Positions 37,429-46,085 of a stretch of DNA of 47,236 bases are shown here, in pieces (position 1 is the stretch's first letter; each line of letters begins with the position of its first letter). Source of the DNA: Bdellovibrionales bacterium (lineage in GTDB: Bacteria > Bdellovibrionota > Bdellovibrionia > Bdellovibrionales > UBA1609). A model generated the notes under the pieces. It ran no database searches. It was not told the DNA's origin and saw only the letters and a program-made list of their open reading frames with translations. The stretch is from positions 1 through 47,236 of the forward strand of contig JALZUR010000007.1 of assembly GCA_023301025.1 (NCBI GenBank), in the 5' to 3' direction. A program made the position numbers and the translations under genes.

Positions 37429-37989
37429 ATGAAGAGTCAAAAAGGTTTTTCACTTATCGAACTAATGGTAGTTGTAGTGATTATAGGTTTTTTAGTGGGT
37501 ATGGGTCTTCCCCAGTACCAAAAATATGTAATGAAGTCTAAAAGATCAGAGGGAAAAAGCCTACTAAGCGGTATGTACACGGCTCAAAAGTCTTTTTACG
37601 CTGAGTGGACACAGTACTATGGTGACTTTGATGCTGTTGGATACGGTCTAGAAGGTGACCTAACTTACGGAGTTGGTTTTGCTGGTGCTGGTGTTGCAGG
37701 TCCTGCTACTCATCCATTTCAACCATTTAGAAATGCCGCTGCAACTTTCAATGCGACTGTATATTGTGCCAGACCATCCCCTGGTGGAGCCGCTCAATCA
37801 TGTCGATCTAAAGTTGGAGGCGTATTAATGCCACAGCTTGTTGCCCAAATACCTGGAACAGCAGTAATTGCCGCTCAAACTTTTAGATTTGGTGCTGCTA
37901 CAAATTTAGATAATGATCCGATATTTGACACTTGGGAGATCGATCAAGATAGAGTTCTTTTTATGACGACCGATGATATTAGTCAGTAG
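37429..37989 (+). CDS. pilA: Type IV pilin (PilA-like)
   Basis: 186 residues with a short basic leader, then the prepilin site KG|FSLIELMVVVVIIGFLVG: Gly at -1, Phe at +1 and Glu at +5, followed by the hydrophobic spine helix. The globular part has two cysteines near YCARPSPGG and QSCRSK that could form the D-region disulfide. The SD is AAGGAG. It could be the major pilin or a pseudopilin; the window cannot decide, since no pil assembly genes lie nearby. Pili are needed for prey invasion in Bdellovibrio (known for that genus). Confidence 0.9.
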   Translation: MKSQKGFSLIELMVVVVIIGFLVGMGLPQYQKYVMKSKRSEGKSLLSGMYTAQKSFYAEWTQYYGDFDAVGYGLEGDLTYGVGFAGAGVAGPATHPFQPFRNAAATFNATVYCARPSPGGAAQSCRSKVGGVLMPQLVAQIPGTAVIAAQTFRFGAATNLDNDPIFDTWEIDQDRVLFMTTDDISQ

Positions 37990-38090: not shown

Positions 38091-38729
38091 ATGAAGACTT
38101 CTTTTCTTTTAATAGCTTTATCTTTAGCACTTCTTACGTTTAAGCCTCTTACAAAAAAAAACTCTGGTGGAAAAATATTTGCTCCTCCTAAGAGTTTAGA
38201 TCTAACACACTTTGGTTTTAATTTAGTTTTAAGTGACATCTTATGGCTCGATTTTATTCAGCACAACTTTGAATGCTCACCTTACGGTGAAGATGGGGCA
38301 TGTACAAAAAGATGGGGCTTTACTGTTTTAGAGGAGGCCACTCAGCTTGATCCCAAATTTTTATATCCCTATCTTCACGGAGGCGTTCAGCTTTCAGTCA
38401 TCAATGGGGATCACAAGGGGGCAGCCTCTTTGTTTGAAAGAGGGATAGAGAGCATTGGTGACAAATGGCAGCTCTTTTATAGAGCGGCCTACATAAATAT
38501 GATTGAGCTTGATGATAAAGAAAAGGCTGCAGGCTACCTCGTCACAGCAGCAGACCTTGGAGCCCCTCAGTGGACCCGCTCTTTGGCTTCAAAGCTTTAT
38601 ACAAAGGTAGGTAAGGCTGAGCTCAGTTACAGAACACTTTATGATTTATATTCAAAAACAGAAGAGGGCCCTTGGCGTGATGATCTAAAAAAACGCCTAG
38701 ATGAGCTAAGTTTAGAGCTGAATCTATAG
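38091..38729 (+). CDS. Membrane-anchored TPR-like protein, unknown
   Basis: 212 residues. A hydrophobic N-terminus (about 4-17) gives a signal or anchor. The remainder is helical: DLTHFGFNLVLSDILWLDFI, EATQLDPKFLYPYLHGGVQL, then KGAASLFERGIESIGDKWQL, a TPR-like pattern. Two cysteines (CSPYGEDGAC) may pair. It lies between pilA and dnaJ but is separated from pilA by a terminator. A role in pili or in chaperone work is not supported by more than position. The SD is weak. Confidence 0.72.
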   Translation: MKTSFLLIALSLALLTFKPLTKKNSGGKIFAPPKSLDLTHFGFNLVLSDILWLDFIQHNFECSPYGEDGACTKRWGFTVLEEATQLDPKFLYPYLHGGVQLSVINGDHKGAASLFERGIESIGDKWQLFYRAAYINMIELDDKEKAAGYLVTAADLGAPQWTRSLASKLYTKVGKAELSYRTLYDLYSKTEEGPWRDDLKKRLDELSLELNL

Positions 38730-41945: not shown

Positions 41946-41975
41946 TACAACACTTTTGCAACACTTTTTTTCTCA

Positions 41976-42004
41976 AAGCCTGGAGACTCTCCAGGCTTTT
42001 TTTG
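41976..42004 (+). terminator. Rho-independent terminator of dnaK
   Basis: AAGCCTGGAG (41976-41985), loop ACT, CTCCAGGCTT (41989-41998), then six more T. A perfect 10-bp G/C-rich stem, one of the strongest in the window. Confidence 0.92.
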
Positions 42005-42174: not shown

Positions 42175-45100
42175 ATGAAAATTACAAAAATACTATTTTT
42201 AGTCCTTTTATCCACAATTTTTGGATGTAGCGGTGGTACACCGTCAATCAGCATTCAACCAACAGTTGAAGATTTTTCTGAAAATTCTTCTGTGAATATC
42301 AAGCTTGATATTTTATGGGTGGCCGACCCATCAAGAAGTATGTTTGAAGAAACTGAAAATGTAAAAGCAAACATTGGTAATTTCATGCAAGGCATTTTTA
42401 ATGCAGAGTTTGATTACAGAGTGGGTGTTATTTCAACGGCGGCCTGGAGTGATCTGTCTTATCAAGAAGATGCAAATGGACGAGAGTTTTTGGTAGATGT
42501 TAACAACAAACCTGTATTTAACAGACTTCATAACGGTGAGTGTAATAACTTTTCAGCTTCTGTTTCAAACGCCAACAGATTTTTAAGTCCTGAGAATGCC
42601 AACAATTTAGAAACTTTTTCTGATAGTTTTGATGTTTACTTTGATATATATGGTTCTGGTCTTGGCACTAGCTCTTGTGGTTTAGTAGGTCCTCCTTTTG
42701 GTGATTTCTCATCAGTTGGAAATAACATTTTTGCAGATCCAAACTACAACACTGCTGAGCGTTCTATTTTAGGTGAGTACTCAAATGATGAAAGACCTCT
42801 TCAAAGCTTAGACGCGTTTTTAAAAGGTTCAGAAGGCAAAGACTTTATAAGAGAGGATGCCTTTTTAGCCGTTGTTATTATTACTGATGAGCCTGATGGA
42901 TCTAGAGATGATTTAAATCCTAATCCCACTTTTGATTCAAATCAGGAAGGGCTTCATGAGGCTGAACGTTATGTTGATATGCTAACGGATCTTAAAGGAA
43001 GTAAAGAGCGTTATGCTGTTTACTCTATAGTAAACCCTGATGGATCAAACTCTGTTGATGAAAATATAGCTAACCTTACAGGCGGACAAGTTGTTGATAT
43101 AAATGGAACAAGTGCTGATTATGCTCAAGGTCTTGATTCTATTCAGCGTTCTATAATTGAATCTTCATCTTTATTTGTATTAAACGGTGAGCCTATAGTT
43201 GAATCTATTAGAATCACTCTTGTTAAAGAAGCTACCGGTGAGGTGATTGAAGTTCAGCCAAACAATGGAAGTGGTGAAGGTGGTTATATTTATGTACCTT
43301 CTGTTAACGGTGTTAAATTTATCCCTCCAACGGTTGTAGAAAATGGTGATAGTCTTTTTGTTGTATTTGATAGACCAAGTTTAGCTGGTGGAACTGATGG
43401 CCTTCAGCCTTCTATTCAACTCTCTAACAACACAATTTCTGAAAATGCAGATATTGGTGAGACTGTTGGACAGTTCTCAATTGCTAACGCTTCTGAGGTT
43501 ACAGAGGTGAGTTTTATTCTTGATTCAGACACCTCTAATGGTGGTTTTTCTATATCTCCTGAAGGTCTACTAACGGTTGCAGATCCAGATAAACTTGATA
43601 AAGAAGCTCTTCCACTTCACACTGTCGAAGTTAGAGTTACAGGAAGTGGAAACTTTGAATTAGAAAGAAGTGTTCTTCTTGTTTTAGAAGATGCAGTAGA
43701 TTCTGTACCTGTAGCTGTTAATGATCAGTTTATAGTATCAGAAGCTTCAGCTAATGCTTCAGGCCTTATAACTGTATCAGGCAGTATCTTTTCTAATGAT
43801 CAAGGTATTGATTCTTCTGAAGGTCACTCTTTTGATCTAACTGTTACACCTTCACGAGGAAATGATGGTGCTATTGATTCTAATGGCACATTTACATTTA
43901 CTATTAATAGATCTGAATTAACTTTAGCTAGTGGACAAAAAGAAGATTTATTTTTTCAGTACACTCTTACAGACACATCTGGAAATTTAAGTTCTGCTGC
44001 TGAAATAAAAGTAACTATTGAAGGTTTAAATGAACCACCTGTTAATGACTTAGTTATTGATGATGTTAATATTCAAGTGAACAATAACGGTATAGCTTCA
44101 ACTGTAAACTTAATTCCAGTTTCATCTGACAGTTCTGGTATAAGTACAGGAACATACACAAGCTCTGTTGATGGAAATGCTACAACTGGTTTTTCTAGTA
44201 ATGCAAATACTGTTGGTGCTCATATTGTTACTTATGAAATGCAAGATGTTGCTGCTGCAGGGTCTGAGCTTTATCAAGTATCTTCAGTTAATCTAACAGG
44301 TGCTCACTCAATGGGGAACACTGTAATCCAAGTTCTTTCTGAAGATGATCAAGTTCTAAGTCGTGAAGTTTTAAGTATTGGTTCAGGTGTTGCGACAGGG
44401 GACGTTGATTTTTCTACTAAAGCTATTGGTAAAAAGATCAAAGTTATTCGTCCTAGTGGTGCTGACAACTCTGATGGGGATACAAACATTCAACTGAATG
44501 AAATTTCTGTTATGGGTGTTTTAGCTGATATAGTAACCATAAATCTAGATGATCACTTTACTGATCCAGACAATTCAAGTGCTGGTGCTTTAACGTATTT
44601 TGCAACAGATTCTATTGGTGAAGGTCCAGCTCCTGGTTGGGCAAGAATTGATGGAACGAACTTAATCATGGTTCCTCCTGCAGGGACAGATACCGTTATT
44701 GGTATAGTTGCTGAAGATGCTTCAGGGGCTACAGTCTTTATAACTTTTAATGTAAAAAGAACTGGTGGAAACACTATTAACTCTGCACCAATTGCTTTAC
44801 TTAGTATTGATGACACTCAACGTGGTGGACTTTCTTTAGCACGTTATGGTGGTGGACCACAAAAACAATCAGGACCTGGTGGTTGTACAGCAAACACTGA
44901 TCCTAGTGGTGATAATTCTGCTCAGTACATCACTTGGGATGAAGGTGATGATTTTATAGATCAGCTTTTAGATGATGAAGGAAACTTTATTTATCCTGAC
45001 CAGTTTGATGCAATACTTTTTGCTGAACAGCCTGATGATGGTCACGGAACTGTTGAAAATGGTTGGAATCAAGTTCCTACTACAAATATAGATAAGTACT

Positions 45101-45987
45101 CTGATGCCGGAAGGATCTTACCACTCAACAATACGGAACGCTGTTATGGAGAAAGCTATACAGGTTTCTTTGTTCCTGACAGAACAGGTCTTTATAGGTT
45201 TAGAACAAACACACTTGATGATATTGTAAGGCTTTTAGTGTCTACTGGTGAGTACGGATCAGAGCTTGTGAATGTAATCACTGGTACAATTGATACAACT
45301 AAGATGAGAGATGTAACTCAAGAAACCATCAACAGTGGGTCAAACTTTTTAGGTTTAAATCCACAAGTTGACAGTTCAACAAATGAATTTTTTCCGCAGC
45401 AGTCGGGCGTAGGTGCTTATGGATCAGGTCATGATACTCAGATCTTTTTTGCTGGTGGAATTCAAGGCTATCAACCTGGTTACATCTATTTAAAAGAAGG
45501 AAATGTTTACAGTTTCCAAATTAGATTTATGGAAGGTGGTGGATCTCAACGCTTTGATTTTGAATTTGACTATAGAGAAGATGGCAGTGGATCTGGCAGT
45601 TGGGAAGACAACTGGCGCTCTATTGATGGGATTGTTTCGGTTCCTTCATCTGGTCCAGAATCTCATGAAGCACTTTATGTTAGTAGTGTACCATTTGTAG
45701 CTTTTAACTCAAACGAGCTTTTTTATGATTCAGAATTTGATGTTTTAGAATATGCTGCAGAGATTGTAAAAGCTGATGGCAGTGCATTTATGGGCCCCGG
45801 TGGGACGTCAGACGTCAGTGAACTGGGTTTAAGTTTTAACACAAGCACAGGTTTACTTTCTGGTGCACTAAACAGCTTTTTTGATAACAGTGCAATGAAG
45901 CCTAGAATTAAATTTAGTGCAACTGAGCGTTTTACGCCAGATCAACAATCTGTTGAATCTCTAGTGATTAAGTTTAAAACCAACTGA
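42175..45987 (+). CDS. Large VWA/cadherin-like/PA14-like surface lipoprotein
   Basis: 1270 residues. Signal with lipobox IFGC (Cys18). About 44-330 is a von Willebrand A-like domain with the MIDAS motif DPSRS (Asp51, Ser53, Ser55) and TDEPDG near 236. About 413-505 looks cadherin-like (ending VLLVLED); about 513-620 is VCBS/cadherin-like (AVNDQFIVSEASANASG, then NEPP). About 990-1150 resembles PA14: YTGFFVPDRTGLYRFRTNTL, then GYIYLKEGNVYSFQIRFMEG. These suggest ligand or glycan binding at the cell surface, which is inference. No clear SD precedes ATG 42175. It stands alone between two terminators. Confidence 0.82.
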   Translation: MKITKILFLVLLSTIFGCSGGTPSISIQPTVEDFSENSSVNIKLDILWVADPSRSMFEETENVKANIGNFMQGIFNAEFDYRVGVISTAAWSDLSYQEDANGREFLVDVNNKPVFNRLHNGECNNFSASVSNANRFLSPENANNLETFSDSFDVYFDIYGSGLGTSSCGLVGPPFGDFSSVGNNIFADPNYNTAERSILGEYSNDERPLQSLDAFLKGSEGKDFIREDAFLAVVIITDEPDGSRDDLNPNPTFDSNQEGLHEAERYVDMLTDLKGSKERYAVYSIVNPDGSNSVDENIANLTGGQVVDINGTSADYAQGLDSIQRSIIESSSLFVLNGEPIVESIRITLVKEATGEVIEVQPNNGSGEGGYIYVPSVNGVKFIPPTVVENGDSLFVVFDRPSLAGGTDGLQPSIQLSNNTISENADIGETVGQFSIANASEVTEVSFILDSDTSNGGFSISPEGLLTVADPDKLDKEALPLHTVEVRVTGSGNFELERSVLLVLEDAVDSVPVAVNDQFIVSEASANASGLITVSGSIFSNDQGIDSSEGHSFDLTVTPSRGNDGAIDSNGTFTFTINRSELTLASGQKEDLFFQYTLTDTSGNLSSAAEIKVTIEGLNEPPVNDLVIDDVNIQVNNNGIASTVNLIPVSSDSSGISTGTYTSSVDGNATTGFSSNANTVGAHIVTYEMQDVAAAGSELYQVSSVNLTGAHSMGNTVIQVLSEDDQVLSREVLSIGSGVATGDVDFSTKAIGKKIKVIRPSGADNSDGDTNIQLNEISVMGVLADIVTINLDDHFTDPDNSSAGALTYFATDSIGEGPAPGWARIDGTNLIMVPPAGTDTVIGIVAEDASGATVFITFNVKRTGGNTINSAPIALLSIDDTQRGGLSLARYGGGPQKQSGPGGCTANTDPSGDNSAQYITWDEGDDFIDQLLDDEGNFIYPDQFDAILFAEQPDDGHGTVENGWNQVPTTNIDKYSDAGRILPLNNTERCYGESYTGFFVPDRTGLYRFRTNTLDDIVRLLVSTGEYGSELVNVITGTIDTTKMRDVTQETINSGSNFLGLNPQVDSSTNEFFPQQSGVGAYGSGHDTQIFFAGGIQGYQPGYIYLKEGNVYSFQIRFMEGGGSQRFDFEFDYREDGSGSGSWEDNWRSIDGIVSVPSSGPESHEALYVSSVPFVAFNSNELFYDSEFDVLEYAAEIVKADGSAFMGPGGTSDVSELGLSFNTSTGLLSGALNSFFDNSAMKPRIKFSATERFTPDQQSVESLVIKFKTN

Positions 45988-46052: not shown

Positions 46053-46085
46053 GCCTCTTATTATCTAAAATGAGAGGCTTTTTTT
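46053..46085 (+). terminator. Terminator whose 3' arm contains the rimO SD
   Basis: GCCTCTTATT (46053-46062), loop ATCTAA, AATGAGAGGC (46069-46078; one G-U pair), then seven T ending right at the rimO ATG. GAGAGG (46073-46078) is the only SD for rimO, so the stem would hide it. Confidence 0.7.

Follow-up and report, generated by a model that had tools for sequence, protein, structure and literature searches.

A candidate two-site adhesin of the Bdellovibrio MIDAS family with a long cadherin-like and PA14-like arm

Results

The window (the whole stretch of DNA analysed, 47,236 nucleotides) forms a single contig in a genome of 2.03 Mb and 55 contigs. Towards its end lies a complete open reading frame of 1270 amino acids, running from ATG to stop with exact coordinates (Table 1). 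Three more homologues were detected in two other genomes, with 1084-1192 positions aligned at 37-49% identity; an open reading frame occurring by chance would not be alignable over such lengths. The gene is preceded by dnaK and followed by rimO. One terminator-like site follows dnaK (41975-41999) and another lies past the gene. Since terminator-like hairpins flank it on both sides, the gene is probably transcribed on its own.

Further upstream, the window carries a type IV pilin-like gene (37429-37989) and, next to it, a second gene (38091-38729). The pair lies approximately 4 kb upstream of the long-arm gene, with the unrelated genes dnaJ and dnaK in between. It is homologous to an adjacent pair, probably Bd1290-Bd1291 by position, in a comparison genome of the same order, which we take to be B. 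bacteriovorus HD100 and in which gene positions agree.

Table 1. Features of the long-arm lipoprotein gene and its product (window coordinates).
Feature	Residues	Position	Strand	Basis
Long-arm MIDAS lipoprotein gene	1270 aa	42175..45987	+	complete ORF; homologues along whole length
Signal peptide and lipobox, ending Cys18	1-18	42175..42228	+	sequence; Cys18 conservation
Small beta domain, N-terminal part	19-42	42229..42300	+	Bd0875 alignment and published domain description; boundary by analogy
VWA/MIDAS head	43-331	42301..43167	+	family HMM, 84-sequence alignment
MIDAS motif D51-P-S53-R-S55	51-55	42325..42339	+	aligned with Bd0875 D66/S68/S70
Insertion at Bd0875 cap site, with Cys168	157-202	42643..42780	+	plain ~350-aa relatives lack it
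D238-E239, E239 aligned to Bd0875 E213	238-239	42886..42891	+	84-head and Bd0875 alignments
Small beta domain, C-terminal part; Y371 corresponds to Bd0875 Y349	332-404	43168..43386	+	Bd0875 alignment
Cadherin-like domain	410-511	43402..43707	+	G009 homologue Pfam match; PDB profile search
Cadherin_4/Big-like domain	512-621	43708..44037	+	G015 homologue; weak Big_6 in window protein
Module conserved in four homologues	638-785	44086..44529	+	no family match
He_PIG-like Ig segment (weak)	786-868	44530..44778	+	He_PIG E=8e-4 in one homologue
PA14/GLEYA-like domain with insertions	872-1150	44788..45624	+	Pfam GLEYA, hhalign, PDB profile
D1015-D1016, aligned with Asp-Asp of PA14 lectins	1015-1016	45217..45222	+	PDB profile, hhalign
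C-terminal He_PIG-like segment (weak)	1155-1270	45637..45984	+	hhalign 54.5% over 31 columns
Terminator-like hairpin past gene		46053..46078	+

The N-terminal part belongs to the Bdellovibrio MIDAS-adhesin family. Residues 1-406 match the family HMM along its full length at 355.8 bits, a score to be read knowing that the HMM seed comprised the window head itself and nine short relatives. The Cys of the lipobox-like I-F-G-C18 is invariant in 4/4 long-arm homologues, and 58 of the 68 family heads with a residue at this position also have Cys there. D51 and S53 are kept in all 84 aligned family heads, 79 heads have Ser and 5 have Thr at position 55, D238 is found in 83 and E239 in 78. In the alignment, C22, D66, E213 and Y349 of Bd0875 correspond to C18, D51, E239 and Y371 of the window protein. 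With a DxSxS motif, the E213-equivalent acid, a lipobox and a head set in a two-ended small domain, residues 1-406 are, as judged by sequence, a full-length member of the family. The cap-site insertion is present in all four long-arm heads, Bd0875 residues 143-176 aligning to residues 166-181 of the window protein.

The one characterised relative of the head, Bd0875, is a lipoprotein located where predator and prey meet, and its MIDAS is needed for efficient prey invasion (PMC11003981). Neither the D66A nor the E213A variant complements a bd0875 deletion, although some effect remains with E213A; the Y349A variant gives full complementation (PMC11003981). Deletion of Bd1483 gave no invasion phenotype (PMC11003981). 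In the HD100 genome, family matches lie where the gene numbers would place Bd0767, Bd0875, Bd1483 and Bd3132; the score identifies Bd0875 clearly, and we infer the identities of the other three. A four-head profile run against the HD100 proteins tested placed the probable Bd1483 first (E=4.8e-45), with Bd0875 at 1.3e-12. The nearest HD100 relative is thus probably Bd1483, not Bd0875. Identity with the Bd0875 equivalog (NCBIfam NF052240, Bd0875 MIDAS adhesin) was ruled out by a score of 29.1 bits against a cut-off of 700, together with a different branch in the head tree.

Within one bacterial order, MIDAS heads have been joined to long repeat regions both in front of them and behind them. Other long family proteins (770-1145 aa), where scanned, carry Ig-like domains first and the head in their C-terminal half, and a further group of ~600 aa has it behind thrombospondin type 1 repeats (TSRs). 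The long-arm group is the only one with an N-terminal head followed by repeats among the matches listed and examined. In the head tree, a branch with 100/100 support separates the four long-arm heads from the rest. Two other MIDAS lipoproteins of the window's own genome (L036:61-1809, 583 aa; L037:187-1809, 541 aa) have large insertions inside the head and share a half of this tree with the long-arm proteins.

Four genomes of the family to which the window belongs encode lipoproteins with four TSRs (PF19030, E 1.1e-20 to 2.6e-51) and a C-terminal MIDAS head: L079:471-2249 (the window's own genome, contig C20), L101:1262-3130, L106:1680-3479 and L107:1657-3492. The apicomplexan proteins TRAP and MIC2 combine VWA and TSR, and the domain content of these Bdellovibrionales lipoproteins recalls them. 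A search of the open-access literature for Bdellovibrio together with thrombospondin returned one paper only, which was unrelated.

The long arm has a narrow distribution. A four-row profile of the arm (residues 406-1270, 865 aa) was run first against 141 genomes from the order and later against 369 from the phylum. Matches extending along the arm, and with them the combination of MIDAS head and long arm, were limited to four proteins in three of the 369 phylum genomes (the window's genome, G009 and G015), all from one uncultured family. The remaining profile matches scored <30 bits and were limited to the cadherin-like and neighbouring parts; the window protein alone, as query against the genome contigs, gave no match. 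G009, an uncultured Bdellovibrionales MAG, has a single copy, which a contig end truncates. G015 has two tandem copies, 49% identical, located right after rimO (L073:4961-13085), the second of which is likewise truncated by the contig end. The gene neighbourhood is therefore partly shared, rimO preceding the copies in G015 and following the gene in the window.

The arm begins with two cadherin-like domains, an assignment for which the homologues give stronger evidence than the window protein does. Pfam Cadherin matches the G009 homologue at the aligned place of residues 410-511 (E=6.4e-13; 49.4 bits against a cut-off of 28.8), with no match in the window protein itself, and cadherins prevail among the PDB profile matches. 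At the place of residues 512-621, a G015 homologue matches Cadherin_4 (E=1.3e-8).

Residues 620-980 included a region that the original prediction had left unplaced. Part of it can now be assigned, residues 786-868 weakly as He_PIG-like, with hhalign not supportive, and residues 872 onward as PA14-like. Residues 638-785 had no match in Pfam, the PDB profile search or hhalign. An F5/8C (discoidin-like) identity was rejected after no match to a three-domain profile, a weak negative since the profile is so small. The RTX adhesin AhLap has a split Ig (He_PIG) domain (PMC12077191). When the flanks of residues 638-785 were joined as in such a split, one homologue gained in He_PIG score, with 23.6 bits against 20.2 before joining; the same join in the window protein gave no match, and hhalign showed no gain over the C-terminal half or control joins.

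The PA14-like domain is supported by several comparisons. Pfam GLEYA matches the window protein at 27.5 bits (cut-off 26.2), and PF07691 (PA14) is not reached. Aligned by hhalign with a profile of PA14 domains from 17 relatives, the region scored 77% probability (E=2.2e-5), versus ≤1.1% for four other query alignments used as controls. Flocculins were the only matches in a PDB profile search with this region, over ~28 residues at E=0.14. PA14 lectins have an Asp-Asp pair in a calcium-binding loop and bind sugars through calcium (PMC6650083). The first Asp of the corresponding pair, D1015, is present in 4/4 long-arm homologues and D1016 in 3/4, the second G015 copy having D-N in place of D-D; the pair also aligns with the Asp-Asp of the flocculins. 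Sugar binding is predicted for this domain. It is not the extreme end of the protein, as an Ig-like segment of ~110 aa follows.

Conservation varies along the protein. Across the four arm homologues, invariant columns make up 26-29% of the VWA domain with its cap, the PA14-like domain and residues 786-868, versus 11-18% of the cadherin-like and small domains. This pattern fits binding parts joined by a spacer, although it is no proof of such an arrangement because the well-kept residues 786-868 have no known binding role.

Structure models add little. Models predicted from a two-sequence alignment reached a mean pLDDT of 34.6 for residues 508-1270 and 48.7 for residues 20-640, and we consider these AlphaFold models too poor to serve as evidence of fold. 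A Foldseek search with the 20-640 model returned cadherins at low TM-scores and was given no weight.

A complete reading frame, a lipobox, a MIDAS and the Pfam, hhalign and homologue evidence together bear out the original prediction of a lipoprotein combining VWA, cadherin-like and PA14-like domains. The predicted domain order also agrees with the sequence, the MIDAS being next to the lipid anchor and the PA14-like domain close to the opposite end.

Discussion

To our knowledge, how Bdellovibrio-like predators choose and grip their prey is poorly understood, and we know of only one MIDAS adhesin with a demonstrated role in prey grip. Our preferred reading, to which we assign a rough probability of 0.45, is that the long-arm protein is a two-site surface adhesin of the Bdellovibrio MIDAS family used for prey contact. 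A MIDAS-family ancestor would have acquired the long arm at its C-terminus, in the simplest case in a single event. In the present protein, the lipid anchor and the small beta domain would keep the MIDAS/VWA head near the outer membrane, while the arm (two cadherin-like domains, the 638-785 module, the Ig-like segments and the PA14-like domain) would extend outward as a stalk, probably stiffened by calcium. First contact might be made by the PA14-like domain, plausibly the binding tip, with a surface glycan on prey or another cell. The head, near the membrane, could then make a second, closer contact, metal-dependent and force-sensitive.

The earlier proposal of a recognition adhesin holds in part. 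There is good ground for an adhesin role, since the head is of one family with Bd0875, for which MIDAS-dependent adhesion in prey invasion has been published (PMC11003981); prey or polysaccharide is a plausible target. The head retains the residues without which Bd0875 function is abolished or impaired (PMC11003981), the PA14-like kinship includes the Asp-Asp pair, the four arms align lengthwise and the heads group together. Against the preferred reading stand the Bd1483 deletion without phenotype (Bd1483 being the probable closest HD100 relative), the D-N paralogue and the absence of a known binding module in residues 786-868.

The position of the head allows for a different function. In contrast to the other long proteins of the family that were examined, this one carries its head next to the lipid anchor instead of at the tip. 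The head might thus act in cis, gripping a partner on the cell's own surface (e.g., a pilus or an outer-membrane protein) as a clutch or force sensor, so that the arm alone meets the target. The type IV pilin gene and its probable Bd1290-Bd1291-like neighbour ~4 kb upstream might hint at such a partner, but this is weak evidence since dnaJ and dnaK, which are unrelated, intervene. Bd0875 itself, moreover, is thought to face the prey. We consider a cis-acting head unlikely.

A two-site adhesin for prey contact must also be weighed against adhesion by the same molecular mechanism to something other than prey, for instance kin cells, particles or the polysaccharide of a biofilm. The sugars bound by PA14 domains of bacterial adhesins are diverse, and these domains have a role in biofilms (PMC6650083). 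Furthermore, an arm found in only three genomes, all from a single uncultured family, is not a general part of predation. The one characterised relative of the head nevertheless acts at the predator-prey junction (PMC11003981), and a non-prey target seems rather improbable to us, if conceivable.

It would be more surprising still if neither domain bound a ligand and the protein served as a coat or spacer. The PA14-like domain is divergent and carries insertions, one paralogue has D-N, and the probable closest HD100 relative can be deleted without phenotype (PMC11003981). Yet the MIDAS residues are invariant family-wide, and few parts of the protein are as well conserved as the head and the PA14-like domain; we regard a structural or inactive protein as very improbable.

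Every assigned part of the protein belongs, by its sequence matches, to a known family, and residues 638-785 match none. We found no description of this domain combination and order in the open-access literature searched. The more speculative view, about which we are doubtful, is that the long-arm proteins form an undescribed class of two-site adhesin in a small Bdellovibrionales lineage, in which the MIDAS head near the membrane would be a force-dependent latch or sensor, a PA14 lectin on a cadherin arm would select the target by glycans, and residues 638-785 would be a third binding module that projects from a split Ig domain. If the preferred two-site reading is true, a MIDAS head and a lectin-like domain are coupled in one molecule, linking glycan recognition with force-dependent gripping.

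The long-arm protein shares features with three known systems. Lipoproteins of the Bd1483/Bd0875 type have the same lipobox, small domain split round a VWA/MIDAS head, DxSxS motif and loop-3 acid. Both Bd0875 and the window protein have an insertion at the cap site, although the inserted sequences are unrelated. The Bd1483/Bd0875-type proteins stop after the head, at ~350-400 aa, whereas the window protein adds an 865-aa arm. The long Ig-stalk MIDAS proteins of Bdellovibrionales (e.g., L089-L096) likewise join a head of this family to long repeat regions; however, their head is C-terminal of the stalk, while that of the window protein is N-terminal, with the arm after it. The PA14 lectin domains of bacterial RTX adhesins and yeast flocculins share the GLEYA/PA14 motif and the Asp-Asp pair. 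Compared with flocculins, the similarity covers only the short stretch noted above, and the window domain has two insertions. RTX adhesins have RTX nonapeptide repeats, whereas RTX models from Pfam and NCBIfam (E up to 10) found none in the window protein, which has a lipoprotein signal instead.
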